Positions 2,997 to 64,000 of a DNA stretch of 64,000 bases are shown here, piece after piece; position 1 is the stretch's first letter; each line of letters begins with the position of its first letter. The stretch comes from a virus, in IMG/VR virus record IMGVR_UViG_3300009788_000091, positions 42,179 through 106,178 of that record; one strand, given 5' to 3'. The notes beneath the pieces are model-generated. The model made no database searches and was not told where the DNA came from. It saw nothing but the letters and a program-made list of their open reading frames with translations. Both the position numbers and the translations under genes were made by a program.

Positions 2997-3011
2997 ATTT
3001 CAACCAAAAAA

Positions 3012-6382: not shown

Positions 6383-6411
6383 TTAGACTCCTTATGACAG
6401 TATAAGTTACC

Positions 6412-6705: not shown

Positions 6706-6718
6706 TTTACCTTTCACA

Positions 6719-7210: not shown

Positions 7211-8219
7211 TAACAATATCTCCTAATTCCATATTTATCATAGTGCCGTCATTTCCACCCTTATTGTCTGTTATTGTAGGAAATGTATCTCCATCACCCA
7301 TTCTCCACCAATGCAATAGGTTTGTAGAAGTTGCATCAGATAATAAATTTGTAGGGTTGCCGGTATTATACAGTCTAGTTATATCAGTGGAAGATAGATT
7401 AATATTCCAAACAGCTACCTCATCCATAAGTCCTAATAAAAAACTGGAAGTAACTGCATTAGAGGTTATCGCAGCTAAATCAAATCTACTTATATTAATA
7501 GCCCCAGGACTATATGTTTTAGTGGCGGAACTAGATGCATTATCAAATAATTCCCAACTAGAACCGTTTCTTACTAATACTAAAAAATGCCAAGTATTAT
7601 TTTCTGCATTTCCTTCGACTACCCCAGAATCTAAACCAGCATTATCTCTTATAAAAAATCCATAAAGATTGTTATCAGAGATTAATATTTGAATTCTAGG
7701 TTGCGTACTTGAATCATCACCACCACCAAACATAGTCCTAAAAGTACCAGTCAATCCATTACTTTTGACCCAAAAACCGATAGACATAGTAGTATCTGTT
7801 TCCAACCCCGGAATATCAGATATATTAACTCTTTCATCTATACCATCAAATATTAAACTTGAAGAACTTAGAAGTGAAGTAGGAGTAGCACTAATCTCAC
7901 TAGATAGAGCAGATTCTCCTCCTAAGCCTACTGAGGCTATTTTATAAAAATAAGTAGTGCCATTAATTAATCCGAGATGTTCAAAAGTTAATGCAGGAGC
8001 AAAAGCTTTAATTTTAGTATCAGCAGTAGTTACTCCTCCAGTAGTATTAAAATATATGTGATACCTTAATGCTCCAACAGTAATATTCCATTCTAAATCA
8101 ATTTTAGAATTTCCAGATGTAGCTGTAAAACCTGTAGGAATTCCTAATGGAGAATCTGTGCTTCCTTTATCAAATTCCACGTCAGAATTAACAGGTAAAA
8201 TTATAGTGTTTCTTGACAT
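7197..8219 (-). CDS. FN3 plus LamG-like adhesion protein
   Basis: A 340-residue protein with two recognisable modules. Residues about 27-113 are a fibronectin type III domain (PTGFTATSGNSKIDLEWN ... TYFYKIASVGLGGES). Residues about 120-325 form a concanavalin/LamG-3-like jelly roll (SLIFDGIDERVNI ... MSIGFWVKS ... WHFLVLVRNG ... LLGLMDEVAVWN ... LLHWWRMGDG). Such domains usually bind glycans or protein surfaces and are common on phage capsids and fibres. It lies among other small virion genes, so a role in decoration or weak attachment to the cell surface is likely. The start is behind AGGTGG. Confidence 0.85.
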   Translation of the reverse strand: MSRNTIILPVNSDVEFDKGSTDSPLGIPTGFTATSGNSKIDLEWNITVGALRYHIYFNTTGGVTTADTKIKAFAPALTFEHLGLINGTTYFYKIASVGLGGESALSSEISATPTSLLSSSSLIFDGIDERVNISDIPGLETDTTMSIGFWVKSNGLTGTFRTMFGGGDDSSTQPRIQILISDNNLYGFFIRDNAGLDSGVVEGNAENNTWHFLVLVRNGSSWELFDNASSSATKTYSPGAINISRFDLAAITSNAVTSSFLLGLMDEVAVWNINLSSTDITRLYNTGNPTNLLSDATSTNLLHWWRMGDGDTFPTITDNKGGNDGTMINMELGDIVNDVP

Positions 8220-8220
8220 T

Positions 8221-8823
8221 TTACCACCTAAACAAAGTAAATAAAGTTCCAGATCCTAGAGTAACTGAGTTAGAAGTATAATCAAGTCTAATAAATTTAC
8301 ATGAAATACCGATCATTTCCCATACTTGAGAATCGGGGCTATCTATTAGAATTATACCTCCTTTCTGTCCTCCTAGATTATTCCAATTAGTTCCATCGTC
8401 TGAACCTTGTAATATAGCTCTAGCATTAAAAGCATTTAAACCAGTCCAAAGAAGTTGTATACTACCTCCAAATTTAAAATTAGATATATTTAAAGCAGCG
8501 GTAGTAAAATTTGAAGTTAAATCAAGAATTGTGGAAGTTTCAGAAACAGAAATTATATCTTTAGTTTTCAACTGACCGTTTAAAATATCGACTAAACCAA
8601 AAAGCGAATTATGTAAATTACCTCCTGCTTTAAAGTTGTCTTCGAAATCTACCTGATGAACATTTCTTGGTATATTCTTTTTAACTGTGTGCTCAAATGT
8701 TATATCACCCTTTCTAGCCATTAAAAAATAGTGATCCCCATTTTCAACAAATTGAATAGATACATTAAAGGTTGTAATTAATAGTTTAAATTCTGGCCAA
8801 GTATTTGTTATTAGTTGTTCCAT
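8221..8823 (-). CDS. Putative virion beta-sandwich protein
   Basis: A 200-residue protein. The C-terminal half (ARAILQGSDDGTNWNNLGG ... FIRLDYTS) has the look of the discoidin-like beta sandwiches found in phage structural proteins, in which a strand with Q.S.DG..W is followed by an RL.YT strand. The N-terminal half is different and unrecognised. It sits directly upstream of the FN3/LamG gene with a one-base gap, so the two may work together on the virion surface. Confidence 0.6.
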   Translation of the reverse strand: MEQLITNTWPEFKLLITTFNVSIQFVENGDHYFLMARKGDITFEHTVKKNIPRNVHQVDFEDNFKAGGNLHNSLFGLVDILNGQLKTKDIISVSETSTILDLTSNFTTAALNISNFKFGGSIQLLWTGLNAFNARAILQGSDDGTNWNNLGGQKGGIILIDSPDSQVWEMIGISCKFIRLDYTSNSVTLGSGTLFTLFRW

Positions 8824-8825
8824 AA

Positions 8826-9578
8826 TTAATTGTCCAATAAAATAAGATCATAACCAGACACTAATGAAAGTGATCCAGTTGCTGCTTGCCCAAAAATTTT
8901 GATATCTGATTTTTCAGTTAATATTAATGGGATTTTAAACTGATGGTCCACATGACCAGCAGATGCACTAATACGTATTTTTGTTTGAAACACTTGCCCA
9001 AAAGGTTTAATTTTTAAACTAATTCTAGGTGCCCTATTTGACTCACCCGAACCAAGCCACACCCTAATTAAAAGACCTGTTTTATTACTTGGAATGGTAA
9101 ACATTGTCATCAGAGACTCGTTATCACTCGGATTTATCGCCGCAAGAGCATCTCCATTAGATTGATTTCTTGCAATGATTGTTCCATCATTTTCTCCAAG
9201 AATGCCTGCGCTGCGAATGATCATTAAAAATATACTGCGATATTGATTAGTAGTGTTTACTGTAGTTAATCCATTAAGATTTACAATTTCATTTTGAAAA
9301 TTAAAAAGATCATCAAGACCAAATACTTCCATGGTATTCGCGCCTGTTCCAAGTAAAGTATCGTTCACACTAGTACTATCTATATTTAATATAACAGCAG
9401 CAGTTGGAGATGGATATATAGATACATTGTCAGGATTATTCCAAATATCTTCTCCAGAAACAGGAACGGATAAATTTTCTCCTGCCTGTATAATTGCTGT
9501 AGCACCTGGAATAAATCCTCTTTGTACAGCTATGAAAAAATCATCAGATATAGTTCTTTTTTTATTAAAACCTGACAT
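8826..9578 (-). CDS. Putative virion structural protein
   Basis: A 250-residue protein. The start is set at ATG 9578: GGAG lies 6 bases upstream and the previous stop overlaps as TAATG; the reading frame is open 18 bases further upstream. Residues about 75-135 (NTMEVFGLDDLFNFQNEIV, NGLTTVNTTNQYRSI, NDGTIIARN) match a repeat-like pattern (EV.GLD.....E.V.LNG.T.V.T...) seen in structural proteins of many marine and environmental phages, probably a beta-rich capsid-fibre or decoration fold. Exact role unknown. Confidence 0.65.
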   Translation of the reverse strand: MSGFNKKRTISDDFFIAVQRGFIPGATAIIQAGENLSVPVSGEDIWNNPDNVSIYPSPTAAVILNIDSTSVNDTLLGTGANTMEVFGLDDLFNFQNEIVNLNGLTTVNTTNQYRSIFLMIIRSAGILGENDGTIIARNQSNGDALAAINPSDNESLMTMFTIPSNKTGLLIRVWLGSGESNRAPRISLKIKPFGQVFQTKIRISASAGHVDHQFKIPLILTEKSDIKIFGQAATGSLSLVSGYDLILLDN

Positions 9579-9859
9579 TATAGTCTCCAGGCCCACAATC
9601 TAATATTTGCTGAAGCAGTTGCTCTAAACCAAATTTTTGATTCGCTTAGTCCATCAAATGTAATTGCACCGTCCTCATCAGTTAATATTCCATCAAGATT
9701 AGGTCTACGAAAAGAAAAATCAATTGTTTGGTTTTTTGAATCATTTATGATTATAATTTTTGTTGCTAAAAACGGAAGTATGATTTGTGCTTCACTGGGA
9801 AAGCTAACGGCATTAATTGGTAATGATATAAAGAAGAAAGTTCGATTTGTTAAAGCCAA
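9578..9859 (-). CDS. Small beta protein, paralogue of the next upstream gene
   Basis: A 93-residue protein with a TTG start at 9859 behind GGGGAAAG; there is no internal ATG. The C-terminal half (DGILTDEDGAITFDG ... ANIRLWAWRL) is alike in pattern to the C-terminus of the gene at 9937-10227 (DGLITVADGMVTFTN ... LVRIWAYN), so the two are diverged tandem duplicates. Probably a small virion-associated protein. The start region and ribosome site lie next to a 31-bp tandem repeat derived from the end of the upstream paralogue. Confidence 0.65.
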   Translation of the reverse strand: MALTNRTFFFISLPINAVSFPSEAQIILPFLATKIIIINDSKNQTIDFSFRRPNLDGILTDEDGAITFDGLSESKIWFRATASANIRLWAWRL

Positions 9860-9870
9860 TTTTTTCTTTC

Positions 9871-9963
9871 CCCATTAATTATTTGCCCAAATTCTGACTA
9901 AAACATCAATTGTAAGCCTAAATTGCGACCAAAACATTAATTGTAAGCCCAAATTCTGACCAA
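9871..9963. repeat. Three tandem 31-bp direct repeats at a gene 3' end
   Basis: Three adjacent 31-bp units at 9871-9901, 9902-9932 and 9933-9963. The last unit overlaps the final codons and stop of the gene at 9937-10227 and the other two lie in the gap downstream. On the minus strand each begins TT(G/A)GTC and contains AATTT(G/A)GGC. Since 31 is not a multiple of three, each copy is in a different frame. The first and second units differ at only a few positions, so the expansion is fairly recent. Confidence 0.85.
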
Positions 9964-10227
9964 AGTATTTGTTCCACTAGGTTTTCTAACAGCAATTCGT
10001 CCTATATCTACATTTGTAAATGTAACCATTCCATCTGCAACAGTAATTAAACCGTCTTTTTTAGTCCCATCAGCCCCAGTAGTAGTAAATTCTAAACTTG
10101 CACCTTCTGTTTTAATTTTAAGATTCCGCATTGAATCTGTAAATTGAAAACTATTGTCTATGTAATTAATAGTTAAATTGCCTAATTCCACATAAAACAT
10201 TCCATTTCTATTTGCAAAAACTGTCAT
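9937..10227 (-). CDS. Small beta protein, paralogue of the next downstream gene
   Basis: A 96-residue protein starting at ATG 10227. It is rich in short strands and ends LVRIWAYN, a pattern repeated in the downstream gene 9578-9859 (IRLWAW). It lies in the cluster of small virion genes between the capsid and the connectors, so it may be a decoration or fibre-associated protein. Its 3' end is the template of the 31-bp tandem repeat. Confidence 0.65.
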   Translation of the reverse strand: MTVFANRNGMFYVELGNLTINYIDNSFQFTDSMRNLKIKTEGASLEFTTTGADGTKKDGLITVADGMVTFTNVDIGRIAVRKPSGTNTLVRIWAYN

Positions 10228-10228
10228 G

Positions 10229-10621
10229 TTAATCTCCTATTGCATCAATCGATTGGCCTGGAAACATTTGTTTACCGACTTTTCTTAAATCAATTCTTGC
10301 TGAAATTGGTGGAGGTGGGTTGTCATAAGTATAAACCATGATTTCTAATTTAATATAATCTGCGTGACAAATAAGTTTTTCTCCCACTTTTCTTTTAACC
10401 CCGTTTTTTTCGTTATAAACTAATTCAGCATAAAATCTAACTAGATTAAACTTTTTTGGAAATGGTAATGTATGAAACTTCCCATTATGTAAAATCCCAA
10501 TTCCCGAAATCCTATTTTGAAAATCTGTTACGGATGACCATTCTAACCATTGCTTTTGATCTTCTTCTCGATTTAAATCAAAAGCTAAAGTTTGACCATC
10601 ACGTAAATTGACCTTTATCAT
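10229..10621 (-). CDS. Unknown protein near capsid gene
   Basis: A 130-residue protein, not recognised. It starts at ATG 10621 with AGGA 8 bases upstream. It begins with a strand-rich MIKVNLRDGQTLAFDLNREED segment and contains a PPPP run near residue 103. No membrane segment. It is one base upstream of the paralogous small beta-protein pair. Confidence 0.6.
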   Translation of the reverse strand: MIKVNLRDGQTLAFDLNREEDQKQWLEWSSVTDFQNRISGIGILHNGKFHTLPFPKKFNLVRFYAELVYNEKNGVKRKVGEKLICHADYIKLEIMVYTYDNPPPPISARIDLRKVGKQMFPGQSIDAIGD

Positions 10622-10669
10622 TCGAACATTCCTTTTGTGCTAGGGCCAATTAAGGGATGCTAAAAACTT

Positions 10670-10993
10670 TTACCTCCGCTTATGCTTTGGTGCCTTTAAT
10701 TCCTTCTTTTGTTTTTTCTTCGATTCCTCTTTATCATCGGATTTCTTTGCAGGAGCCTCGGCACCAGCAGGTTTTGCTGGTGCTTTGGCTTTAGCTTCTT
10801 CAACTCTTTCTGCAACGACCTTGATTCGGGCTTTTGGATAAGCCATTTTAATGTAAGCCAACTCACCTTCAGTAACTGTGATTGGTTTACGCGGCATTAA
10901 ATGGATTGAACCCTTACATGAGCGTTTGCAGTCCTTTGGAAACCCTTCGACATAAAGAGGGGAATAATCGTAATACATAATTAGTTTTTTCAT
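10670..10993 (-). CDS. Small protein with Ala/Lys-rich tail downstream of capsid gene
   Basis: A 107-residue protein. Residues 1-65 form a compact domain with two Cys (DCKRSCKG) and the stretch PRKPITVTEGELAYIKMAYP. Residues 66-107 are a low-complexity Ala/Lys/Glu/Pro tail that ends in basic residues (KAPKHKRR). Small two-part proteins of this kind often lie next to capsid genes. It resembles in layout, though not clearly in sequence, the upstream gene at 11018-11257. Confidence 0.6.
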   Translation of the reverse strand: MKKLIMYYDYSPLYVEGFPKDCKRSCKGSIHLMPRKPITVTEGELAYIKMAYPKARIKVVAERVEEAKAKAPAKPAGAEAPAKKSDDKEESKKKQKKELKAPKHKRR

Positions 10994-11017
10994 ATTGTTT
11001 AACCCCCTTTTTCATTT

Positions 11018-11257
11018 TTACGCCTTAGATTTTTTTCTTTTCTTCTTTTTTGATCCTAAAACTTTACGCTTTTTTAATTTCTTAGGTTTAGAAGATGCCA
11101 TTTCTGTTTTAAGCAAAGCGACATGAAAATGTCCATTTGCTTTATATTCAGCCACTACATCTTCACCTTTGATAATTCGTGGGACATCTCTGACCCATCT
11201 CATTTTTCCAAGTGTATAAGTTTTTGGACCTTTTAAAACGACTCTTGCAGTTACCAT
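11018..11257 (-). CDS. Small protein with Lys-rich tail downstream of capsid gene
   Basis: A 79-residue protein starting at ATG 11257, which has AGGAG 5 bases upstream; a TTG 36 bases further upstream is less likely. Residues 1-50 form a small domain (YTLGKMRWVRDVPRIIKGEDVVAEY) and the last 28 residues are very basic (KKLKKRKVLGSKKKKRKKSKA pattern). The basic tail might touch DNA or the capsid interior. Function unknown. Confidence 0.65.
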   Translation of the reverse strand: MVTARVVLKGPKTYTLGKMRWVRDVPRIIKGEDVVAEYKANGHFHVALLKTEMASSKPKKLKKRKVLGSKKKKRKKSKA

Positions 11258-11305
11258 TTGTGCTCCTTTCATTGCCAAATATGGGCTACTCAACTATTTA
11301 TCTAA

Positions 11306-12520
11306 TTAGGCTAATCCAATGTTAATGCCAAGAACAACAGCGTCAGTTTCTTCAATCTGACTTGCTACTCTTGCTGTCATAGCAAACTCTGTAACCGAAC
11401 CAAAGATGTTTCGATCACGTTCCAACCGAATGTCACGACCAATTCCAAGTATCATATTCCTGAATTCAGTCAACCACATTTGGCTTTCAGCTAGATAACT
11501 TAATTTCACATCACTAGGATCAGAAATCGCTCCTGAACCTGGATGAGTAATAGTTCCAGCTGCGTTATCAATCGTGTAATCGGTAGGATTCACAAAAGGA
11601 GTAACAGGAACCTTCGGATTTGCATTGATAGTTTGCAAAACAAGAATGTCACTACCAGCAACAATATTCTTATTTTTCAATGCAACTGGACTTACACCAG
11701 TTCCCAAAGAAAATTCTTCGGTAATCAAAGGCGTCTGAGGAAGTAGAGCCAATGGCACCAATTCAATTCCAAATGGGCGAAGATTTACTTCACTTGTTGC
11801 AGCTGTATCACCAAGACCAGTTGCGCGTGAAGCCAGGTTATTCCTGAAAAGTTGTTCGGTGGTATCCGAAATGAAAAATTTCAGGTTACGCTTGTTACGT
11901 TTGAACTTGCTAGGCATTTCAACAATCATGTCACTGAAAATCTGATGCTTAATATTTTCGCCATCATTATCAACGATATGACTTAATCCAGCTAGTTTCA
12001 TCCAACCATCTTGCAATTTAAGATAAGTATCAACGATCACTTCCGTAGCTGATCCGCCATCGACCAATTCACTTTCGAATTTAACTGCACCAAGTTTATC
12101 ACCTTGGATATACAATTCTTCAAGATCGTTCGAAAATTGAGTCGCCATCAATCTCATGATGGTATCTTCAACAGCTTCACCTTCTAAGTTTTCAGAAAGG
12201 AACTCATCTGAAATTTCCCATGGAACCATAATTTCTTCTGGTTGTAGGGTGACCTTACTGGTGTTGATTTTTCGTCGAACACCTGGATCAACAGCTTCTT
12301 TCTTAGGAACAGCAACTCTGGCTCCAACTCCAATTTTATCGATATCTAATTTATCATTTCGAAATCGAATAACTCGAACGCGACCTTGAAGACCAGTCAC
12401 ATCAATAACAAAATCAATGAAACGATCTGCTTGTGCATCGTTCAATCTTCCTGCTGCTGCGATTTCCGCAGTTGTGATTACTGCTTTTTCCAGCAATTCT
12501 TTATTAGTTAGCTTACTCAT
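11306..12520 (-). CDS. Major capsid protein (HK97 fold)
   Basis: A 404-residue protein that builds the head shell. Recognisable features are the N-terminal AGRLNDAQADRFIDFVID helix found in several HK97-fold capsid families, the P-domain-like region VPWEISDEFLSENLEGEAVEDTI, and the C-terminal strand-helix pattern ending in a Val/Ile-rich tail. It lies after the protease and scaffold genes, in the usual order. Its leader contains a likely promoter at 12542-12569, fitting high expression. Confidence 0.85.
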   Translation of the reverse strand: MSKLTNKELLEKAVITTAEIAAAGRLNDAQADRFIDFVIDVTGLQGRVRVIRFRNDKLDIDKIGVGARVAVPKKEAVDPGVRRKINTSKVTLQPEEIMVPWEISDEFLSENLEGEAVEDTIMRLMATQFSNDLEELYIQGDKLGAVKFESELVDGGSATEVIVDTYLKLQDGWMKLAGLSHIVDNDGENIKHQIFSDMIVEMPSKFKRNKRNLKFFISDTTEQLFRNNLASRATGLGDTAATSEVNLRPFGIELVPLALLPQTPLITEEFSLGTGVSPVALKNKNIVAGSDILVLQTINANPKVPVTPFVNPTDYTIDNAAGTITHPGSGAISDPSDVKLSYLAESQMWLTEFRNMILGIGRDIRLERDRNIFGSVTEFAMTARVASQIEETDAVVLGINIGLA

Positions 12521-12541
12521 TTTTAACCCCCTTTAAGGTTT

Positions 12542-12569
12542 GTTATACAGTGTTATACAAACAACTCAA
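12542..12569 (-). promoter_or_regulatory. Probable capsid gene promoter with repeated TATAAC motif
   Basis: On the minus strand: TTGAGT (12569-12564), 16-base spacer, TATAAC (12547-12542), then a 21-base leader to the capsid ATG including a GGGGG ribosome site. The core GTATAACACTGTATAAC is the same 17-mer found upstream of the small terminase gene and is related to the palindromes in the 48-52 kb repeats. Confidence 0.5.
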
Positions 12570-12573
12570 ATCA

Positions 12574-13842
12574 TTATTTAGTTCGACCTGATCCAGACTT
12601 ACCACTATTCGCTGCATTTCTTTTTCGAATAGAAGTACGAATATTATCTAAATTAAGTAAATCTTTAAATACAGATTCAGTTTTAGTTGTTTGATTTTCA
12701 TCATTATCATCATCTTCGTCGTCGTCATCTTCGTCATCTATGGCTCCAGATGCACCTGCTGTAACTTCGAGATCATCAAATCGTTTTTTAAGTTTGTCAG
12801 AACTAGTTTTTACTTCAGTTTTGACAGATTCAACTGCTTCTTCAATAGATTCAACTGCTTCTTCCAGATTTTTTATCTGCTTCACAGTTTCATCCATAGA
12901 TTTTTTCATTGAAGAACCTTTCTTTTTTTGGCCCATCACCGAAGCGATAAGACTTGAAAGAGATTCAGCAATTTGTCTCAAAGTAGCCAATCTTTGAGAT
13001 GAAATTTTAGCACCTGCTTTTTCGACTTGATTTTCATCATCAGAATCTTCGTCAGAATCTTCATCTTCATCAGAATCTTCATCAGATACTTCCGATTTTA
13101 CAGCCTTGATACGGTCTAGAAGTTCAGCATACCCAGTTTCAGTTTCATCAGACTTGTTTTTGTCTGCGACCTGTTCAACTTGGTTTGAACTAGCTAACAT
13201 AGTAACTTGCTCTAAAGCTGCCATGTTTAACGCGACGACTTCATTAAGAGCACTCGCACTGCTCTCATGTAACGTTAACGACTGCTCTAACAAGCCTTTC
13301 AATTCACCTATATTCTTTTCTAACGCTTTAATACGTTTTTCTAAATTCATATTAATTTTTCCTTTTTCTTGATCATCAGAATCTTCATCTTCATCAGAAT
13401 CTTCATCAGTTTCTTCGTCTGAATCAACTTCATCTGTCTTTTCAAACTTTTCAGGATGTTCTGATTTGAATTTTTCAAAATCAAAATTACCATCCATACA
13501 AGCGCCAGCAATATCATGTTCCATTGCACATGAGAAACAAACAGAACAAAGAAGTCCGATCTTAGGTTCGCTTCCACCTACTTGTTTACAGAAAACGCAA
13601 GTGCCTTCATCTGAATCAGATTTTTTTACTTTTTTAATCCAATTCCCACCTTTTACTGCTGCATCTTTATAAAGTTCTTGCAAAGATTGCGCTATATTTT
13701 TAAAATTTTTCGCATTGGCGTTTTTAAATAAATAAAATGATTCACCAATTGCTGGTTTATCGACACTTGAAACCTCATGCACTTCAAGATCAACAATTCG
13801 TTTCTTCCCATTTGATTTAATTTTCTTTTTTCTTTTTTTCAT
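12574..13842 (-). CDS. Scaffold-like protein with XkdF C-terminal-type segment
   Basis: A 422-residue protein. I start it at ATG 13842, which overlaps the protease stop (TAATG) and follows GAGGG. Residues about 17-45 (VDLEVHEVSSVDKPAIGESFYLFKNA) match the segment that ends XkdF-type protease proteins. Residues 75-115 hold a CxxC...CxxC set (CVFCKQ, CSVCFSC). The rest is acidic Asp/Ser-Glu tracts and coiled coil (MNLEKRIKALEKNIGELKG), then a basic C-terminus, as in internal scaffolds. It most likely guides capsid assembly and is degraded by the upstream protease. Confidence 0.7.
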   Translation of the reverse strand: MKKRKKKIKSNGKKRIVDLEVHEVSSVDKPAIGESFYLFKNANAKNFKNIAQSLQELYKDAAVKGGNWIKKVKKSDSDEGTCVFCKQVGGSEPKIGLLCSVCFSCAMEHDIAGACMDGNFDFEKFKSEHPEKFEKTDEVDSDEETDEDSDEDEDSDDQEKGKINMNLEKRIKALEKNIGELKGLLEQSLTLHESSASALNEVVALNMAALEQVTMLASSNQVEQVADKNKSDETETGYAELLDRIKAVKSEVSDEDSDEDEDSDEDSDDENQVEKAGAKISSQRLATLRQIAESLSSLIASVMGQKKKGSSMKKSMDETVKQIKNLEEAVESIEEAVESVKTEVKTSSDKLKKRFDDLEVTAGASGAIDDEDDDDEDDDNDENQTTKTESVFKDLLNLDNIRTSIRKRNAANSGKSGSGRTK

Positions 13843-15635
13843 TATGAAGCCCTCTTTATTTCCCATTTCATATTAGAATTGGGAGTAAATTCAATACATT
13901 TGGTTTTTTGTCCTTCTTCAATAAGTCTAGCACGACCACCGATACTAAACCCAGTAATTTTTCCAGTTTTGATTAAAATCCATACTTCATCATCAAAAAC
14001 TTTAACAGTCATTACCCACGTTCCTTTAACAATCTTTCGACCATTAATCTCAAAATTGACAGGAGCCATATAACTTTCGACAACAGCAATTTTTCGACTA
14101 AAGTCAACATGCATAAATCCTCGATCTGCTTTGTCATCTAATCCGATAGAATTTAAAAATTCTGGGTCATTTTGAAATGTAAGCTTAATCATGTAATTAT
14201 GTCCAGCATTTTCAATTTCTTCTGCACTTACAATTTCATCTTGAAGATCAATACTTTCAGGAATTAAAACTGGCCCCATTACAAGTCTTTTTTCTTCATC
14301 TTGTTTTACAATATCATATTTTAACGATTTAAATTTTGTTCCTTTTCGAAGTTCTAATTGTTTCAAAAATTCATTAAATGATAAATGTAATGGCCAAACA
14401 ATATCACTATCTAATTTTTTAACCCCTGCTTTTAATCGACCAAAAACACCTTTAATGCCGGATGTTAATTCTTTAGTTCGAAAAGAATCTCTTTTAAAAT
14501 CATTTGGTTTACGTTGGCGTAAACGAAAGAAATTTTCTGTTTCATCTACTTTACTTGATTTAAAATCATGATCTTTAGCCCATGATACTGCTTGAGATCT
14601 TGAAAATTTCTTTTTATCAAAAAGCAAAGTTTGAATAACTAACGATTCTTGTTTTTCTAAATAGGTTTGTTTTAATGCAATAATTCTTTTTTTCATATCT
14701 AACATAGATTCAGATTCCTTTGCTTCATTGTCTTCAAATGAATCAAGTGTGTCAGTTCTAGTTTCTGTCTGATTTTCATTTTGGACAGCATTTTCTGTTA
14801 ATGAATCCGCTGCACTTGCATCTAAACTTTCTGCTACTTGTAATTCTTCTTTCAGGAAGCCTACTACTGCTTCGACTCCTTCAGTTAGTCGAACTCGAAT
14901 CAATGTAGCTTCCTGAAACTTATCATTTGATAATACCATAAAAGTGAAGGCATCATCTCTTTCTTCGGATGCCCGTACATTTAAACCATGATCCATTACA
15001 AATCGTCTTGCTTGCCCTATATCAACAAATCGTTGACGCGAAAGAACAAGTGATTGAATTCGTAATCCATCTCCTAAACGACTCAAATTTTTTATTAATG
15101 CTTTAAGACATGCTTCTTTAAGCACCGCATTAAAATTTGGACTATTTAATCGTTTAATCAACGCAAAATCCATTTCAACAGGATAATTTTTATCCCTTTT
15201 AATTTTATAATCTTTAAGCCCTGGCTTATTTTTTACAGAATTTTGAACTTCAGAAATTAAATCGCCTGGAAGAAGTGATACGAATTTCTGTTCATTAATA
15301 TCCAAAATATGAGTATGAAGTCCAGATAATGTTGTGTTCTCTACTTGTAATTCATGTGGGTGTGGTGTGCCTGAATCAGTTTCAATAACCTGTATTCCTT
15401 CTTGAGTACGAATAGAGATTCTATGTATATGTTTAGGCTGTGATTCAGCACCTACTTCACTTTCTTTTGCATTAATTGGATGCCAGTGTTCTCCATCCAA
15501 TTCAGTCATAATTAATCTATCTTGAACAAAAAATAAATGTTTGTGAATTCCATCTTTGAGAGTTTTTGTAGGCGACTCAAGTCTGTGAAGATGAGCACCA
15601 CCTTCACCGATAACTTTTATTTTTTTATTACCCAT
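13842..15635 (-). CDS. XkdF-type prohead serine protease with N-terminal HxH repeats
   Basis: A 597-residue protein. Residues about 440-590 match the XkdF/S78_2 protease family: PVLIPESIDLQDEIVS, HVDF..KIAVVESY, and KITGFSIGGRARL, whose Ser in FSIGG is the expected nucleophile and His in MHVDF a candidate partner. Two related copies of a phage capsid-associated domain lie in the middle (about 196-275, degenerate; about 340-400, with QAVSWAKDHDFKSS and a SFRTKEL..GI..VFG ending). The first 115 residues carry six HxH motifs (HLH, HKH, HWH, HIH, HPH, HTH). The protease matures the prohead. Confidence 0.8.
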   Translation of the reverse strand: MGNKKIKVIGEGGAHLHRLESPTKTLKDGIHKHLFFVQDRLIMTELDGEHWHPINAKESEVGAESQPKHIHRISIRTQEGIQVIETDSGTPHPHELQVENTTLSGLHTHILDINEQKFVSLLPGDLISEVQNSVKNKPGLKDYKIKRDKNYPVEMDFALIKRLNSPNFNAVLKEACLKALIKNLSRLGDGLRIQSLVLSRQRFVDIGQARRFVMDHGLNVRASEERDDAFTFMVLSNDKFQEATLIRVRLTEGVEAVVGFLKEELQVAESLDASAADSLTENAVQNENQTETRTDTLDSFEDNEAKESESMLDMKKRIIALKQTYLEKQESLVIQTLLFDKKKFSRSQAVSWAKDHDFKSSKVDETENFFRLRQRKPNDFKRDSFRTKELTSGIKGVFGRLKAGVKKLDSDIVWPLHLSFNEFLKQLELRKGTKFKSLKYDIVKQDEEKRLVMGPVLIPESIDLQDEIVSAEEIENAGHNYMIKLTFQNDPEFLNSIGLDDKADRGFMHVDFSRKIAVVESYMAPVNFEINGRKIVKGTWVMTVKVFDDEVWILIKTGKITGFSIGGRARLIEEGQKTKCIEFTPNSNMKWEIKRAS

Positions 15636-15645
15636 ATGTTTTCCT

Positions 15646-15662
15646 GTTATACATTGTTATAC
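15646..15662 (-). promoter_or_regulatory. GTATAACA-type repeat upstream of protease gene
   Basis: The minus strand reads GTATAACAATGTATAAC, one base different from the capsid and terminase copies. It ends 11 bases before the protease ATG. TATAAC could be a -10 box but the -35 region is poor, so it may be an operator or a phage-specific late promoter element. Confidence 0.4.
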
Positions 15663-15746
15663 AGACTACTTAAAAAATATCAAACCTTTTAATTTTTTGA
15701 AAGCTTTAAAATATAATCCCCTAATTAATATAATAGCAAATAAATA

Positions 15747-16820
15747 CTAAACTGGCACGATTTCAGATCTACATCTGAAATGCGCTGGTGGAACAATTGG
15801 TACACCGTTTCTTGCCAACAAATTCGCAGCATCATTTGAATTCAATTTTTGGCCTCTAGATAAATTAAATTCCGATAAATCTTTTCTCCATTTGAAGTTT
15901 TCTACGATGTCTTGGCTATTCTTTTGTTTAAGAATATCCTGCATTTGACTCTGCGCTAACTCAATTGGAAAAACTCGACCATCCATTTGTAGACAAATAG
16001 TAGAAGTTCGATTATCAACTATAGAAGACCATCGAAGTTGTGTAATTCTGGCTCCGACCATAAGATTTAAATTACTAAAAGCCCTTGCTCTAGTAATTGT
16101 TGTTGCGGATAATCCTTCAAAATAAGATGTAATAGATTTTTGGCCATTTAATAAAATCGATCTTGGTACAAGTTGTTGAAAACCACCAATTCTTTTAGAT
16201 ATTTGATTTCTTAAAACCACACCAGCTTCTTTTTTAGACAATCCTTTTTCAAAAACTCGTTTTTGAATTATATTAATTAAAGTTGGTTTTATATTTTTAA
16301 AAAAATAAGCTCCAACTGCAATAACATGAAGCCTATTTAATTCTTTTAAAGTAGATGTATCTGTTTCTGTGAATGATGAACTTAATTCTGGAGTGATTTC
16401 TCCTTCATCTTGTTTCCTAACAATTGATGTTATTTTTATATCAAGATAATAAAGACTTTTTTCTTTAGTTTTGAATCGACGAACAAATTGTTTTCTTTCT
16501 ATTCTATAAGCTGTTTTTACATCTCTTTTAATTCGTTTTTGAACTGCTGTGTCAAATGTAGTAAAAGGTTTGTCTAAAGCTGCAATCATACTTTTTGTTT
16601 CGCTTTTTGTAACCTTCTTATTTGAACGTAAATTGATTTTAGAAACGACATTATTCACTAATTTAGTAGCTCTACGATTCCATTCTCTCATAATAAAACG
16701 GGTAAGATTTTTTTCAATTCGATTAATTGCACGACCATCATTATCCCCAATAGACTTCTCTAAAATAATTGAAGTCAAATCGAAGATAATTTCTTTTTGA
16801 TCAAATGTGAGTTGTTTCAT
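15747..16820 (-). CDS. Mu F-like / SPP1 gp7-like head morphogenesis protein
   Basis: A 357-residue minor head protein. The C-terminal hallmark is present: VDNRTSTICLQMDGRVF at about residue 264 and VPPAHFRCRSEIVPV at the end, a Cys/His pattern typical of the Phage_Mu_F family. The N-terminal two thirds are basic and helical. Family members bind the portal and the inside of the head and are ejected or needed for DNA delivery. Start ATG 16820 overlaps the portal stop (ATGA). Confidence 0.88.
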   Translation of the reverse strand: MKQLTFDQKEIIFDLTSIILEKSIGDNDGRAINRIEKNLTRFIMREWNRRATKLVNNVVSKINLRSNKKVTKSETKSMIAALDKPFTTFDTAVQKRIKRDVKTAYRIERKQFVRRFKTKEKSLYYLDIKITSIVRKQDEGEITPELSSSFTETDTSTLKELNRLHVIAVGAYFFKNIKPTLINIIQKRVFEKGLSKKEAGVVLRNQISKRIGGFQQLVPRSILLNGQKSITSYFEGLSATTITRARAFSNLNLMVGARITQLRWSSIVDNRTSTICLQMDGRVFPIELAQSQMQDILKQKNSQDIVENFKWRKDLSEFNLSRGQKLNSNDAANLLARNGVPIVPPAHFRCRSEIVPV

Positions 16821-18568
16821 TTAAAATAATCGGAGCGATCAGAGCCGAATCCCTCTTTATCTAATTCAAGTTCCAAAATATGTTGAATATCCATTAAATT
16901 TTTAATTAAAGTGTTTGGATTCTTAAAAAGTTTTTTCAAGACTTTTTGTTGTTCAGCATTTGGTGCTTTAGGTATTTGACCTTGTGGGGCAAAAGTTCCA
17001 TTGGCATTTGCATTTCCAGCTGAGTGCATCAACATAGCAAGGCTAAGAGAGAACGGAATATCAGGATGAAAGAATTTCTTAAATTCTTCAGGAATATTCT
17101 CATCAACTTCGGGAAGGTCTTGATTCAAAACATCACTCAGAAGTTCCCGCGCAATCCTTGGGCTCAATCCACCTGTCTTCTCGCCCCCAACAAGAATTCT
17201 CACTATATCCTCATCATTAGTGACATTTGGACTATTTGATTTGAAAGTCCAAAATCGAATACCTTGTTGCATCATAATCTTGTTAAAAGCAGTATCAAAA
17301 TCTTCTCTTTCTGGATTGTATACATACTTCTCAGCAAATCTTTCAGATTCTTGAGCAATAGATCGATTTAAATTTTCAACTCTACCTACCATTAATGGGG
17401 GAACTCTAAACGATCTACGCAATTTATCAGCGTTATTTGAATCATATTTTTGCCACAATTGATCAGAATGTTGAGCCTGGGTAAGCGGTTTAATTTCAAT
17501 TTTTACATTAGATGGATTGGATAAACCATCGTGACTTGATTCGGCTTCAATCAATAAAAATTTTGAATAATTAGAATTACCTTTTACTTGTGAATCAACA
17601 AACTCTCTCAATCTTTGAACTGATCCAGATGTTAACATTCCACCATTTGCTAAAATTGCCATTGATGGAACATGGTTATTCATCATTGTTAAAATATTAG
17701 TTTCATCCGTTTGTCTAGATCCTTTAATGGAAATAATATTGCCTGTGAATCGTGGCATTCCATAAGGTGTTCGTCTTGTAGTTGGAATTTTAAAATGAAA
17801 AAGTTCATTAGCATGGAATTTTTTATTCAAGCGTTTATTAGCAACATCTCCATTTCGGAGATCAATAATTCGAGTATCACCAAATTCCTTGAAGTAAACT
17901 TTCTTTGTACCTACAACTTGTACATAGCGTCTAAACCGTCGCATAAAACTTCGTCTTACCAGTTTCAAATCATCTCTTACAAAAAAAAGGCTCATTCTTG
18001 TAAGTTCTTTATCAGGTTTAGAAATTAAAACCGTTGCAGCAGAAATATGATTAATACATGAATATCGTTTTGCATTAGTAAATGAAGGAATTAATTCCCA
18101 CCAAGCATTCCCTGTTTGTTCTCGATCTTTTCTGCTTTTTCGTCTTAGTTTAACAAAAGAATCCTCTGGATTAGGATAAGTTAAAAGGCCATCAAGAAAT
18201 GCTTTTTCTTCAGCCATTTTTGATTTATTTGCTGCCATTTGGCTTTCAGTCATTTTTCTAGATTTTAATCTTCCACCAAAACCATCAATACCAATTTCCA
18301 TTTGTTCAATTGTTTGACCTAATTCAGTAGAAAACTCTGAAAGAACGGCCAATTCACTTAATGATAATGGTGGAGCAACGATTTTACTTCCAAGTCTTAA
18401 TTGTTCATGTTCAGTTTCTAGAATTTCATTACTTTGAAATTTTTTAATTTGGGTTGGGCTTACACTTATAACTGTAGCTTTAAGAATATGACGATTACCT
18501 TTTTCATCTATAACAGGAATTTTTTTACTAACAGTATTTTTTGATTTTTTAATTAATTTTTTTGCCAT
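16817..18568 (-). CDS. Portal protein
   Basis: A 583-residue portal, forming the ring through which DNA enters and leaves the head. Family features include YPNPEDSFVKL at about residue 134, GNAWWELI at about 154, the HANELFHFKIP segment near 260, and FRVPPLMVGRVENLNRS at about 402, a pattern of PBSX/Mu-type portals. The C-terminus is Asn/Gln-rich then helical and reaches into the barrel. It sits between terminase and the Mu F-like gene, as expected, with an ATGA overlap at its end. Confidence 0.9.
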   Translation of the reverse strand: MAKKLIKKSKNTVSKKIPVIDEKGNRHILKATVISVSPTQIKKFQSNEILETEHEQLRLGSKIVAPPLSLSELAVLSEFSTELGQTIEQMEIGIDGFGGRLKSRKMTESQMAANKSKMAEEKAFLDGLLTYPNPEDSFVKLRRKSRKDREQTGNAWWELIPSFTNAKRYSCINHISAATVLISKPDKELTRMSLFFVRDDLKLVRRSFMRRFRRYVQVVGTKKVYFKEFGDTRIIDLRNGDVANKRLNKKFHANELFHFKIPTTRRTPYGMPRFTGNIISIKGSRQTDETNILTMMNNHVPSMAILANGGMLTSGSVQRLREFVDSQVKGNSNYSKFLLIEAESSHDGLSNPSNVKIEIKPLTQAQHSDQLWQKYDSNNADKLRRSFRVPPLMVGRVENLNRSIAQESERFAEKYVYNPEREDFDTAFNKIMMQQGIRFWTFKSNSPNVTNDEDIVRILVGGEKTGGLSPRIARELLSDVLNQDLPEVDENIPEEFKKFFHPDIPFSLSLAMLMHSAGNANANGTFAPQGQIPKAPNAEQQKVLKKLFKNPNTLIKNLMDIQHILELELDKEGFGSDRSDYFK

Positions 18569-18578
18569 AAAATTTCCT

Positions 18579-20135
18579 TCATATTAATCCAGGTTCTTCA
18601 TCTCTTGTTTTTTTTGATCCACCAAAAGCTAAATTTACTGCAATATCAAGAGCATCAAATAAATCTTTAAATCGACCTGACGGCATTTTTAAAAGATGTT
18701 CCATTAAATCATGCATCCCTTCAAGAAAATAAATTTGCCCTCTTTCAAAATACGCTGAAAGTTTCCAAGCCCTCACTGTTTTATCTTTATCGGTAAAAAC
18801 TGGTACTGCTCTTATATTAGCTAATTTTTCATCAGTTTGCATATCCTGAATTAAGGCCCGTTGATATCCATTAGCTTCAATTCCCAACTTAATTGGGTCA
18901 TATCTGTCAAATTCACGCTTAATAATAGCCTTTTGGTCAGTATAATGCGTTACAGCATTATGGTAACTTAATACATAAATATTTTTTGTTTTCTTGTCAA
19001 TTCCGATTGTAATGTGCGCAAATTTATCAGCATCATCACTTTGTTTAATCGCTAAATCCGCTCCTTGTATTTTAATCAATTTACTAACATTGATATCTTC
19101 CAGACGATACCATTTGAACCAATCAATCTTAAATATTTTTCCTTTCATTCCTTCGACATCATTTTGCATTTGAGCATTAAAAATAATTCTGCCCATAATT
19201 TTACGTAATCGAAGTAAATATCGAACACTTGCTTTTTCAGGCCATAAAGCTAAATACTTTTTTGACTCTGGAGTATTTCGTTTTAAAAGTTTTTTAATTT
19301 CTATTAAAGCTGGATAAACTTGATAATATCGTTTTTTTATTTTTCCTTTTTTAGTTTTTTTACAAAGAATATTATGTTGAAGATACCCCCACAAGTCTTC
19401 TGGATAATATCGAGTACCAATCAACGACATTTCCCCACCATCAGGTTCTAAACAAGGTAATAAAACTTTCAAAAACCAAGTTCTAATTTTTTCACGTTGT
19501 CCTTCAGTGCGTGAATTTTCTTCATCAACTAAATCATCACCAATAATTAAATCAAAATGCTTTGAGGCTGGACTTCCACCAACTCCCATCGTTGTAATTG
19601 TATCTTCTTTAGCATCTGATTTTCTTGGTGCTACTCTTATATTACCATCATTCCAAATCGTTCCAATATGATTACCAAATAAAGCTACGAATTCTTTTCT
19701 TTTTAATTTCTGTTTAATTTCAGAAAGAAATGTAACAGCATTATCATCAGTTTTTGAAGCTATAAGAATTCGAATATCTGGATTTTGTATTATTTTTAAA
19801 ACACAACGAGAAATATTTAAAATTGTTGATTTACCATGACCTCTAGGAGCTAAAGTTAAATTCCATCGTTGATCTTTTCCATCTACTTGATTAGGGATAA
19901 CTAAAGAATTAAACTTAATTCCAAGATACATAGCCCAATGAAAATCTTTAATCTGATAACCTAAAACTTCAGTCATTAAAAGATCCATTCGATCATGATT
20001 CTCAATCTGGTCTTTTAACCAATGTTTCTTAGCTAGCCTTTTCTTTTTTAATTCATCAACAATTGTTTGACGATTTCTTAATTTTTTAGTTTTAGACCCA
20101 CCTGAAGTTTGTTCGCTATCAGTAATAAAAACCAT
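18579..20135 (-). CDS. terL: Terminase large subunit
   Basis: A 518-residue packaging motor and nuclease. Walker A is APRGHGKST (about residue 93) and Walker B is FDLIIGDDL (about residue 195) followed by an SLIGTRYY coupling segment. The RNaseH-like nuclease domain shows its acidic residues in QGADLAIK (about 363), IEANGYQ (about 427) and LFDALDIAV (about 498). It starts one base after the small subunit gene and is followed by the portal gene. Confidence 0.95.
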   Translation of the reverse strand: MVFITDSEQTSGGSKTKKLRNRQTIVDELKKKRLAKKHWLKDQIENHDRMDLLMTEVLGYQIKDFHWAMYLGIKFNSLVIPNQVDGKDQRWNLTLAPRGHGKSTILNISRCVLKIIQNPDIRILIASKTDDNAVTFLSEIKQKLKRKEFVALFGNHIGTIWNDGNIRVAPRKSDAKEDTITTMGVGGSPASKHFDLIIGDDLVDEENSRTEGQREKIRTWFLKVLLPCLEPDGGEMSLIGTRYYPEDLWGYLQHNILCKKTKKGKIKKRYYQVYPALIEIKKLLKRNTPESKKYLALWPEKASVRYLLRLRKIMGRIIFNAQMQNDVEGMKGKIFKIDWFKWYRLEDINVSKLIKIQGADLAIKQSDDADKFAHITIGIDKKTKNIYVLSYHNAVTHYTDQKAIIKREFDRYDPIKLGIEANGYQRALIQDMQTDEKLANIRAVPVFTDKDKTVRAWKLSAYFERGQIYFLEGMHDLMEHLLKMPSGRFKDLFDALDIAVNLAFGGSKKTRDEEPGLI

Positions 20136-41914: not shown

Positions 41915-42121
41915 TTAACTGTCATCTATGTTGAACTTTTCTTTCAGCCCATTTATAACTTCTTCAAGATTACTCATTGAAGTCTTAGCAACTAGCATTA
42001 TTTTTTCATACTCAGTCCCAATTAAATCCTTAAGATATCCATTTTCTAATGCATACCATGGCCCCTCAGCGTCCCACTTGTAACAAATTATTTCTGCTTG
42101 TTCTTTTGTTAACTTTTTCAT
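41915..42121 (-). CDS. Small unknown protein
   Basis: A 68-residue acidic helical protein (MKKLTKEQAEIICYKWDAEG at the start, SNLEEVINGLKEKFNIDD at the end). ATGA overlap with the upstream gene. Not recognised. Confidence 0.57.
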   Translation of the reverse strand: MKKLTKEQAEIICYKWDAEGPWYALENGYLKDLIGTEYEKIMLVAKTSMSNLEEVINGLKEKFNIDDS

Positions 42122-42420
42122 TTTTTCTCTTTATTTTTATTGATAAATTCCCAAACTTCTTTCTTTGGAGCAACAGTCGATAATATTGATGCTGACAATG
42201 CATTATGAATTTCATGGCTTACATTTTGTTCTTTCAGAAACTTCCACGTTACTTCAGAAAAATACTCTTTAGCATCATCCCAACCTTTTTCGTAATCAGC
42301 CAATAACTTTCGCAATGTTAGATTTGGAACAGCAGTGGACTTCATAACCCCCAATTGCATATCCTTAAACAATTTCCGTTTTTCATCGCCAGTCAAAATA
42401 ATATTTTTATTATCAGTCAT
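42118..42420 (-). CDS. Unknown 100-residue protein
   Basis: A helical protein (TLRKLLADYEKGWDDAKEYF), with a C-terminal Lys-rich tail that provides the purine-rich ribosome site for the next gene. It overlaps the upstream gene by 8 bases. Not recognised. Confidence 0.57.
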   Translation of the reverse strand: MTDNKNIILTGDEKRKLFKDMQLGVMKSTAVPNLTLRKLLADYEKGWDDAKEYFSEVTWKFLKEQNVSHEIHNALSASILSTVAPKKEVWEFINKNKEKK

Positions 42421-42640
42421 TTTTTATCTCCTGCGTTTTATAATTTCTTTGGCTTTTTCTAACCGATCCGTTTGTTCTCTTTTCTAAAAACTTCATAAAA
42501 TCTAAAATACGTAGATAATCGTTTAGATCAAATTCTGGAGTAGATTTTTTCCCAATAGGAATGTACTCATTCGCCAGTTTAATCAATCGACTAAATCGTA
42601 TTGATTTGTTTTTAAAACGAATACGAATTTTTTTAGTCAT
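42413..42640 (-). CDS. Small basic protein downstream of the ACNNN array
   Basis: A 75-residue very basic protein (MTKKIRIRFKNKSIRFSRLI) with a helix and an Asp-rich centre. ATG 42640 follows AGAGGTG. It is the first gene after the 433-bp period-5 array, which would form its long 5' leader. It could bind RNA or DNA, but no family was recognised. Confidence 0.55.
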   Translation of the reverse strand: MTKKIRIRFKNKSIRFSRLIKLANEYIPIGKKSTPEFDLNDYLRILDFMKFLEKRTNGSVRKSQRNYKTQEIKND

Positions 42641-42660
42641 CGCGCACCTCTTTTAAATAA

Positions 42661-43093
42661 CTTTACTTTACATTACTTCACAAAACTACACTCTACATTA
42701 CAAAACCTGACAGCACTTTCTTCACTTTACAAAACAGCACAGAACAGCACGCTACTACACTCCACGATACTTCACTTTCTTTACTTTACAAAACAGCACA
42801 AGACTTCACAGCACACAACGTAACAATACGCTACTTTCTTTACTTCACAATACTCTACGAGACATGACTCAACGATACACTACTCTACTTTCTTTACTTC
42901 ACTTTACTGAACCGGACGCTACGATACGAAACATGACGTTACTTTCTTTACTTCACCCCACATCACAAAACAACACATCACTTGACAATACTTTCATTAC
43001 TTTACTTCACAATACTACACACTACTTCACATTATTTCACTTTCATTACTTTACAAAACAGAACCAAACTATACACAACTACACAACACAATA
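42661..43093. repeat. Degenerate pentanucleotide array (ACNNN), about 86 units
   Basis: The plus strand reads as AC every five bases (AC TTT AC ATT AC TTC AC AAA and so on) with the other three positions free, over 433 bp between the genes at 42413 and 43099. G is rare on this strand. Runs of TTTC(T/A)TTAC break the phase by one base about every 47-60 bp (near 42717, 42776, 42836, 42890, 42944, 42991 and 43040), giving a second level of order. An ORF can be read across part of it but is low-complexity. No gene, promoter or terminator was seen inside. Confidence 0.9.
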
Positions 43094-43098
43094 AATTT

Positions 43099-43695
43099 TT
43101 AACATTTTAAATTCTTTTTCTCCTTCCATCGAATTACTTGAAATTGACCAAAATAACCACCTTTATTAACTCGAAAAGATCCTAATCCTGATCGTCTACC
43201 AGCATCTTCTAAAATCTGTAATGCAATTTCAGGTTCTAAAATTGAATCGTCTACTTGTACATCAAATTGAATATTCCATTTTTCAAATCTAGGTCTACAA
43301 ACTATAACTGCACCAGCTTTATAATTTGTTGCTTTTCTAATATCAACTTCAAATTTCTTAATTGGTTTCTTTTTCTTATCAATTAATGTAGCTGATTCAC
43401 CAATTGGTCTAAATACTCCACCAGCAACTGCTTTGATACTTTTTCTACCAGAATTTTTTTGTTTATAATCAGAAGCAACATGGTTAAACGCGCCTGAAAC
43501 ATAACCCAATGGAATACAAAAACTACCATCAGTATTTTTATAAACATGTTTCTCAGCAATTTGTCTTGGTGTTAATTCTTCTTTAATTTTTTTCTTACCA
43601 GACTTAGCACCAAGTAATTTAAACTTGTCTTCATCACTCATCTTATGATGTAAAAGCGGTGTGGTTCCTTCTAAATTTACATTATACATTTTCAT
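43099..43695 (-). CDS. RAMP/Cas7-like phage protein of unknown function
   Basis: A 198-residue protein. The N-terminus (YNVNLEGTTPLLHHKM), a central IPLGYVSGAFNHVA, and a C-terminal end with VCRPRFEKWNIQFDVQV, ILEDAGRRSGLGSFRV and GGYFGQFQV follow a pattern seen in many phages (strand, RPRF..W, helix, AG...GIG..R....G.FG.F). The glycine-rich G.G..R...G.FG end recalls RAMP/Cas7 RNA-binding folds, but this is only a resemblance. I start at ATG 43695 behind the AAGGAGAAATTGAAA cassette. Confidence 0.65.
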   Translation of the reverse strand: MKMYNVNLEGTTPLLHHKMSDEDKFKLLGAKSGKKKIKEELTPRQIAEKHVYKNTDGSFCIPLGYVSGAFNHVASDYKQKNSGRKSIKAVAGGVFRPIGESATLIDKKKKPIKKFEVDIRKATNYKAGAVIVCRPRFEKWNIQFDVQVDDSILEPEIALQILEDAGRRSGLGSFRVNKGGYFGQFQVIRWKEKKNLKC

Positions 43696-43978
43696 TTTCA
43701 ATTTCTCCTTTTCCAAGTTTTAATTTAAATAATCGTCTGTATACATTATCTAACGCAACCATCGGGTCTTTATTAAATATATTAGCAATGATCAATGCTA
43801 ATTCAACCAATTGCCATCTATTATTAATATGAAATTGATTAAACAAGCCATTCTTCCCAGTTGCATCATAAATTTGATTAATTGTTTTCAAACTATACGG
43901 ATACTTTTCAAGCAATTTAATACGATAATCAATTTGGGGGGGCTTCTTACTGAAAAATTTTTTCAACCAATTAATCAT
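43682..43978 (-). CDS. Unknown protein with shared NWLKKFFSKK N-terminus
   Basis: A 98-residue protein. The start MINWLKKFFSKK is the helix shared with 41315 and 44478. The remainder (INQIYDATGKNGLFNQFHIN, RWQLVELALIIANIFNKDPM, VALDNVY) resembles the central part of 35441-35869. Its last codons create the ribosome site of the next gene. ATGA overlap upstream. Confidence 0.6.
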   Translation of the reverse strand: MINWLKKFFSKKPPQIDYRIKLLEKYPYSLKTINQIYDATGKNGLFNQFHINNRWQLVELALIIANIFNKDPMVALDNVYRRLFKLKLGKGEIENENV

Positions 43979-44481
43979 ACTTCCACACCAAGTTTAATTT
44001 TATAAATTCCCCAAAGTCCCAATCGAAACGCAAGTTCTTCTTTTACCGGCCTTCCGCCATTGCAAATGATTTTTCCTTCCCACGCTTTAATGCCGGCCAA
44101 AATTGATTGCAACGTGGGTTCAGTTACCTTTTGTCCCATATAATATTTCAAATCAGGTAAATAATCATCCATAACCTTTTCACAAATTTCTAAAACTTTG
44201 GGTTTGTCTTCCGGTGGAAATATTTCAAACATAGGAATCCATTCACGATTGTTAAGATTCCAGACTAACGGGAATTCCAAACCGCAATGAATATCTGAAC
44301 GGATCTGGTCTGACGGACCAACAATCCAACTGCCTGTCCGTTTCACAAAATCGGTCAACATGATTTCAGCAGTCATCCAATTCGGAAACAAATTCGTCAC
44401 TGAAACACCTATGTTTTCAATCCAATCAATTGGCCGATTGTCTGCTGGTGTTTGTTTTATATCAAAAATAATAGGTTTCAT
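43975..44481 (-). CDS. Unknown 168-residue protein
   Basis: An acidic alpha/beta protein with many Trp and Pro residues (KQTPADNRPIDWIENIGVSV; FPLVWNLNNREWIPMFEIFP). No motif recognised. ATGA overlaps on both sides. GC content looks somewhat higher here than in neighbours, so it may have a different origin. Confidence 0.6.
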   Translation of the reverse strand: MKPIIFDIKQTPADNRPIDWIENIGVSVTNLFPNWMTAEIMLTDFVKRTGSWIVGPSDQIRSDIHCGLEFPLVWNLNNREWIPMFEIFPPEDKPKVLEICEKVMDDYLPDLKYYMGQKVTEPTLQSILAGIKAWEGKIICNGGRPVKEELAFRLGLWGIYKIKLGVEV

Positions 44482-44675
44482 TTCTTTTCCTGCATCATCC
44501 TTTTTATCAATATCTTTTTTTCTAAATCTATTTGATTAATTATAGCTGAGGCGTCCAAAGTCGGGAGAACTGGCAATTTTATCGCAATTACCCTTTTCTC
44601 TAATTCACCATAATCAAAATGAATATATTGGTCATTAATCTTTTTCTTTCTGAAAATTTTTTTCAACCAATTCAT
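44478..44675 (-). CDS. Short, probably frameshifted copy of gene 41315
   Basis: A 65-residue protein starting at ATG 44675 behind GGGAAG. Residues 1-30 (MNWLKKIFRKKKINDQYIHF) and DYGELEKRV match the start of 41315-41680, and the DNA matches further, but after KRV an insertion of about one base in an A run puts it in another frame, so the CPKC part is lost. It may be a decaying duplicate, or a shortened gene that is still expressed. Confidence 0.5.
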   Translation of the reverse strand: MNWLKKIFRKKKINDQYIHFDYGELEKRVIAIKLPVLPTLDASAIINQIDLEKKILIKRMMQEKK

Positions 44676-63718: not shown

Positions 63719-64000
63719 TTACTTTTTCTTTTTAGATTTCTTTTTACCTTTGCCTTTTCTCTTAGGCTTCTTAACAATTTTCTTTTTTGACTTTTTGACA
63801 ATTTTCTTTTTTGACTTTTTCTTTTTTTCTGTTTCATCGTCTTCGTCATCGTCATCGTCATCGATTTCGTCGTCATCATCGTCTTCGTCATCATCATCTT
63901 CTGTTTCTTCGTCATCCTCATCATCATCTTCTTCAGATTCTTCGTCATCGTCCTCATCATCATCGTCATCTGAATCATCTTCATCATCATCGTCATCCGA
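63719..64000 (-). CDS. Acidic protein with Lys-rich C-terminus (5' end outside window)
   Basis: The visible 93 residues up to the TAA at 63719-63721 consist of about 57 Asp/Glu residues mixed with Ser/Thr, then IDDDDDDEDDETE and about 35 residues rich in Lys (KKKKSKKKIVKKSKKK, then KKPKRKGKGKKK). It is low-complexity and may be disordered. The position upstream of the exonuclease gene suggests a DNA metabolism protein with an acidic tail, such as an SSB, but the folded part lies outside the window. A frame with many Met residues on the same strand is only its shadow. Confidence 0.75.
   Translation of the reverse strand, partial: SDDDDDEDDSDDDDDEDDDEESEEDDDEDDEETEDDDDEDDDDDEIDDDDDDEDDETEKKKKSKKKIVKKSKKKIVKKPKRKGKGKKKSKKKK

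Follow-up and report, generated by a model that had tools for sequence, protein, structure and literature searches.

A five-base-period array beside a gene for a predicted Cas7-like protein in a viral genome: a putative guide-RNA locus of a divergent VIPR-type system

In the stretch of viral DNA analysed here (64,000 nucleotides, referred to as the window), an array of 80 GTNNN units on the minus strand adjoins a gene for a predicted Cas7/Csm3-type RAMP protein, and we read this array, with a probability of roughly 0.8, as the guide-RNA locus of a VIPR-type system which represses competing phages or satellites. The array, the predicted fold of the neighbouring protein, the pairing of its family with same-strand period-5 arrays and the spacer-like replacement of blocks in relatives were observed in this analysis. 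We arrived independently at the RAMP fold, at the association with arrays and at the hypothesis of guides, all in agreement with the preprint PMC13142463; that preprint is the source of the RNP, of the gapped rule for targets and of the biological role, which it describes for other members. Table 1 lists the features at the locus.

Periodicity and block layout of the array

The earlier note had described AC at each fifth base of the plus strand between 42661 and 43093, and the autocorrelation bears this out, since the number of AC pairs at lag 5 was 71 in the array in comparison to a mean of 17.9 (sd 3.6, maximum 32) in 2000 dinucleotide-preserving shuffles. The 433 bases contain 89 AC dinucleotides, and the spacing from one AC to the next was exactly 5 in 60 of 88 intervals, the remainder being mostly 2+3 splits or 9-base breaks. 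Nowhere else in the 64-kb window did period 5 of any dinucleotide equal the level of the array. Tandem Repeats Finder returned mainly imperfect 44- and 59-base repeats, and the description of the array as a periodic constraint and not a simple tandem repeat therefore stands.

On the minus strand the array was parsed into eight blocks of 9, 9, 9, 10, 10, 11, 11 and 11 units (49, 49, 49, 54, 54, 59, 59 and 56 bases for blocks 1 to 8). The number of units, put earlier at about 86, is corrected to 80 five-base units and seven 4-base joints, and the sum of 80x5, 7x4 and 5 edge bases gives the 433 bases of the array. The second order of phase breaks, which had also been pointed out, was recovered as well: each of the seven breaks is a 4-base GAAA (minus strand) that is preceded by GTAAA, GTAAT or GTGAA and closes one of the first seven blocks. 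Most blocks finish in GUAAAGAAA or a near variant, and the conserved 3' end of the 9-11-unit blocks, GTRAAGTAAAGAAA or a near variant, corresponds to the VIPR guide format. In the GTAAAGTGAAGAAA-type end of block 7, the final four bases GAAA are the joint and the next block is shifted by one base. The first two positions of the units are G in 99% and T in 100%, followed by three variable bases; one unit of block 2 lacks GT (ATAAT), and GT is preceded by A or T in about 83% and by G in 5%.

The predicted folding of the array RNA was no stronger than that of shuffles (z 0.11), and no stable structured tail was found on the blocks. None of the Rfam covariance models matched positions 42000-44500 at E <= 1, and no CRISPR-like repeats were found at the array. 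Promoter-like sites at the array locus were fewer than in shuffles, with no signal above chance, and the search for terminators gave one terminator-like site on the opposite strand and nothing above chance.

Table 1. Coordinates of the array, its blocks and the adjoining genes in the window
Feature	Position	Strand	Basis
Putative period-5 guide-RNA array, 80 GTNNN units, 8 blocks	42661..43093	-	lag-5 AC count; block parse
Array blocks 1-4	43041-43089, 42992-43040, 42943-42991, 42889-42942	-	parsed sequence
Array blocks 5-8	42835-42888, 42776-42834, 42717-42775, 42661-42716	-	parsed sequence
Conserved block end, GTAAAGTGAAGAAA-type, example from block 7	42717..42730	-	parsed sequence
vipr-like gene, 205-aa Cas7/Csm3-type RAMP protein (predicted), C-terminal glycine-rich loop	43099..43716	-	phrog_4652; AlphaFold2; Foldseek
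75-aa basic ORF, downstream of array; candidate accessory gene	42413..42640	-	ORF list
98-aa ORF upstream of vipr-like gene, overlapping its start	43682..43978	-	ORF list

The partner gene and its relatives

The vipr-like gene stands directly upstream of the array on the same strand. Its product matches phrog_4652, a family of unknown function (E 4.9e-17), and no family in Pfam, NCBIfam or PADLOC. The AlphaFold2 model, built with 35 related sequences, reached a pLDDT of 82 and a pTM of 0.80, and the best 50 matches of a Foldseek search of the PDB were all Cas7-type CRISPR chains (type III/VII, Cas7-11), with a best E of 3e-6, a probability of 1.00 and a TM of about 0.55 against Cas7/Csm3 chains. 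The array thus has as its neighbour the type of protein that covers guide RNA in fixed steps. The model is consistent with the small RAMP protein with RRM core and glycine-rich loop by which VIPR is recognised, and G177, R182 and G190 in the C-terminal loop are invariant. The protein shares no more than 27% identity with any sampled relative and forms a very long lone branch in the tree; close relatives of the protein or of the array were found in neither IMG/VR nor INPHARED.

Distant homologues of the protein were collected from GenBank phages, IMG/VR and bacterial genomes, giving 187 phage or bacterial loci, and an array was called at a locus as the best period-5 chain anchored on a G dinucleotide within 1.5 kb and on the strand of the gene. 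Such an array was present at 176 of the 187 loci, and at 74 of the 80 non-redundant loci kept after similar proteins were removed; some of the loci without a call are contigs ending at the gene and some have weak arrays. The median period-5 score of the loci was 13, and that of the window array was 52, in comparison to a median of 4.0, a 95th percentile of 5.1 and a maximum of 8.0 in 48 control pieces of phage DNA. The pairing with the Cas7-like gene tells against the suggestion that the array is a leader for the basic protein at 42413, which lies on its other side, and the guesses of a scaffold, a packaging or recombination site, or a decoy are likewise not supported. The choice of the minus strand as the relevant one was right. 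The search of related phages for periodic arrays, which the earlier note had proposed, gave the same five-base order with different bases, and the proposal to take unrelated sequence at this site as a refutation would mislead, for the bases differ and the five-base order is kept.

Most arrays of the relatives read GGYNN, and that of phiHSIC reads GCANN. The per-position entropy of the GG arrays was 0.35, 0.60, 1.41, 1.97 and 2.00 bits, so that positions 4 and 5 of GGYNN are fully random. The mode of the block length was 11 units (712 blocks). In actinophage arrays, a 4-base unit links successive blocks in 131 cases, and in 123 of these it follows GGCAG; at actinophage loci including L012 and L082 the period-5 blocks abut through a 4-base joint which resembles the GAAA joints of the window. 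The survey ties the anonymous phage protein family phrog_4652 to VIPR.

Two further kinds of locus were noted in the survey. In the Gordonia phages Trine and MakoManhole (L010:4573-4848 and L065:1646-3142), repeated tRNA-like minihelices of about 41 nt, of the acceptor/T-arm type with a GGTTCGACTCC loop, lie between guide blocks, which suggests that these guide separators are processed by tRNA enzymes; they had no Rfam match and are thus not recognised hammerheads, and the main text of PMC13142463 makes no mention of tRNA-like guide separators in Gordonia phages. On the Bradyrhizobium japonicum plasmid CP126019 (L216:3001-3639), a vipr-like gene with a GG array has HNH, metallophosphoesterase and AAA ATPase genes as neighbours, and this locus may be a defence-type VIPR.

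Around the array of the window, the 75-aa ORF had no Pfam family, no PHROG better than E 0.1 and no match to the proteins adjoining other vipr genes, and the 98-aa ORF had no family in Pfam and PHROG searches. With regard to a vap accessory gene, the neighbours of the array had no match among proteins that flank vipr genes elsewhere, and none of the ORFs of this phage was matched by seven proteins of accessory type. The 8 proteins tested around the array matched no Cas family. Elsewhere in the window, positions 309-20135 carry genes of the myovirus type for tail sheath, capsid, protease, portal and terminase, whose distant relatives occur in Streptomyces, Vibrio and Rhizobium phages. A long imperfect TCATCx tandem run at the end of the window (63834-63997), with periods of 6 and 33 bases, is probably an acidic/serine-rich coding repeat. 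Outside the window, the same phage has about four AT-rich direct repeats of about 22 bp (L002:10604-10715, TTACAATGTATTATATTATC...), possibly an origin or regulatory site.

Block turnover, targets and alternative explanations

In seven Felixounavirus strains whose proteins are 97-100% identical, the separators are near-constant and the period-5 blocks are largely different, with one block common to two of the strains, and the LESphi2 group likewise has constant separators and changing blocks. This hypervariability between close relatives was seen in related loci; judged from the sequences, the turnover resembles the behaviour of guides and not that of passive spacers. In homologous blocks of 86-92% identity, changes numbered 55 and 62 at the two N positions in comparison to 84 at Y per 440 units, the pairs compared not being independent, and NN is therefore not free.

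These observations bear on the explanation that the array RNA is a scaffold or a titration decoy, which the Cas7-like protein coats in steps of five bases and whose variable bases are uninformative. Such an RNA would need no target to explain its period or its fixed GT, and the target searches for the window guides described below found none, but blocks swapped as cassettes between constant flanks in close relatives, the smaller number of changes at NN than at Y, and the reprogrammable NN-dependent DNA targeting reported for VIPR members (PMC13142463) all speak against it, and we regard it as improbable.

With respect to the guide-RNA reading, no target of the window guides was found in the phage's own genome, and gapped-pattern scans of IMG/VR with blocks 7, 4 and 6 gave 8, 15 and 1 matches, respectively, which were chance-like, the agreement at the third base for the block 4 matches being 26%, equal to chance. 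A BLAST search of the concatenated triplets against GenBank phages gave nothing meaningful, no convincing target was found in the collected loci, and a search with five-base target spacing gave no excess over controls. Since few sequences could be searched, a missing target counts only weakly against guides. When skips of 0 to 3 bases were applied to 815 guides and about 1.5 Mb of phage DNA, a slight excess was present at skip 1 only, with 20 high matches in comparison to 7 in shuffled controls (10-17 in comparison to 7-9 for the other skips), so that the 1-nt skip rule is only weakly visible in our own data. In a separate observation, one guide of L171 (position 951) agrees at 22 of 24 NN positions with L150:3053-3088, in the final part of another phage's vipr-like gene, a possible VIPR-against-VIPR target.

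The number of variable bases read per unit was also considered. When the variable triplets of the array are read as codons, there is one stop in 80, and their base make-up resembles codon positions 1-2-3 of the phage; once the conserved block ends are removed, this codon signal is weak (log-likelihood 3.6 above flat, bootstrap 67%), and a register for the variable bases drawn from codon make-up alone was not retained. A three-letter code, in which each GUNNN unit would read three consecutive target bases with no skip and the guide would be a contiguous, codon-aligned stretch of 27-33 bases, is thus tentative and rather unlikely; if true, it would fall, as an intermediate, between VIPR with its gapped code and CRISPR with its continuous guide.

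The array could also be a DNA element, namely a G-quadruplex (GG with 3-base loops) or a packaging or recombination site, and the GGNNN arrays of relatives do match a two-tier quadruplex motif. The GTNNN array of the window and the GCANN array of phiHSIC lack that motif, however, the arrays keep to the strand of the gene, and tRNA-like minihelices separate some of them, pointing to RNA processing, which makes this explanation very improbable.

The trp leader RNAs that are bound by TRAP have a period of five, and TRAP is a ring of 11 subunits. The analogy with TRAP in the earlier note holds in part, in that it indicates a repeated protein-RNA contact, a protein that reads five bases with each subunit being the natural explanation, but the predicted fold of the partner is Cas7 and not TRAP. 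A TRAP-like ring around which a block of about 11 units wraps in order to regulate a transcript would fit the mode of the block length and the period as in trp leaders; with a partner of predicted Cas7 RAMP fold, block lengths ranging from 7 to over 100 units, and arrays upstream as well as downstream of the gene, we find it scarcely credible. Low-complexity sequence kept by replication slippage or composition bias, for which runs of identical units in some relatives such as L010 could be cited, is refuted by the association with the same gene family across unrelated phages, and the window units moreover differ from one another, with 80 units in strict phase and seven identical 4-base joints.

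Proposed mechanism and comparison with known systems

As a guide-RNA locus, the array would be transcribed on the minus strand, either together with the vipr-like gene or after it. Copies of the Cas7-like protein would coat this RNA, each subunit covering five bases, gripping the fixed G-U and leaving the variable bases turned outwards. The blocks of 9-11 units, most with the common end given above or one close to it, would act as separate guides, each forming discontinuous base pairs with double-stranded DNA from competing phages or satellites, which would thereby be repressed. From the described VIPR members we infer, by analogy, that this divergent GUNNN member works in the same way, two (or three) of its variable bases presumably reading the target.

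The statement that no phage element of this form had been described was true until April 2026, when VIPR arrays, which are CRISPR-related, were first reported (PMC13142463); the kind of element has thus been known since 2026 and the window system is a divergent variant of it. In VIPR, the RAMP protein of a phage (Vipr) works with vrRNAs that contain 9-16 GGY/NN units, and the RNP binds double-stranded DNA with one base skipped per unit (xNN) and represses competing phages and satellites, as with the system from phage SUSP1 (PMC13142463). The vrRNAs, the RNP, the gapped DNA recognition and the phage repression were reported for the SUSP1 and P. fulva systems (PMC13142463). The window system shares with VIPR a phage-encoded small RAMP protein with an adjoining array of five-base units, several guides per array with 9-11 units here in comparison to 9-16, fixed bases with variable bases between them, and a conserved guide end. 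It differs from VIPR in the GAAA joints without a structured tail (fold z-score 0.1), in that no vap gene was recognised near the array, in the low identity of its protein to every sampled member, and in GT with three variable bases in place of GGY/NN. Because the array departs from the strict consensus, the system was filed as divergent VIPR-like and not as a strict GGY/NN member, the published definition allowing "GGY/NN or a related consensus" (PMC13142463). The 4-base block joints are common to the window array and the actinophage arrays.

TIGR-Tas systems, which are found in prokaryotes and their viruses, are also non-CRISPR guide arrays (PMC12385481), but with another effector protein and another guide format. 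Like the window array, trp leader RNA carries a short motif each five bases, about 11 times, and it differs in the unrelated fold of its protein, in the several blocks of the array and in the selection on variable positions in relatives. Class 1 CRISPR-Cas systems (Cas7/Csm3) share the predicted fold and the repeated protein-RNA contact along the guide, and the differences are the period, which is five here and six there, the lack of CRISPR repeats and spacers, and the single small protein of the window. VIPR has been proposed as the viral ancestor of CRISPR, and a deep lone branch with GUNNN, not GGYNN, suggests a motif that varies within the family. The window system offers a direct test of the number of bases read per subunit, and therefore of the way in which continuous CRISPR guides could have arisen from a gapped code.
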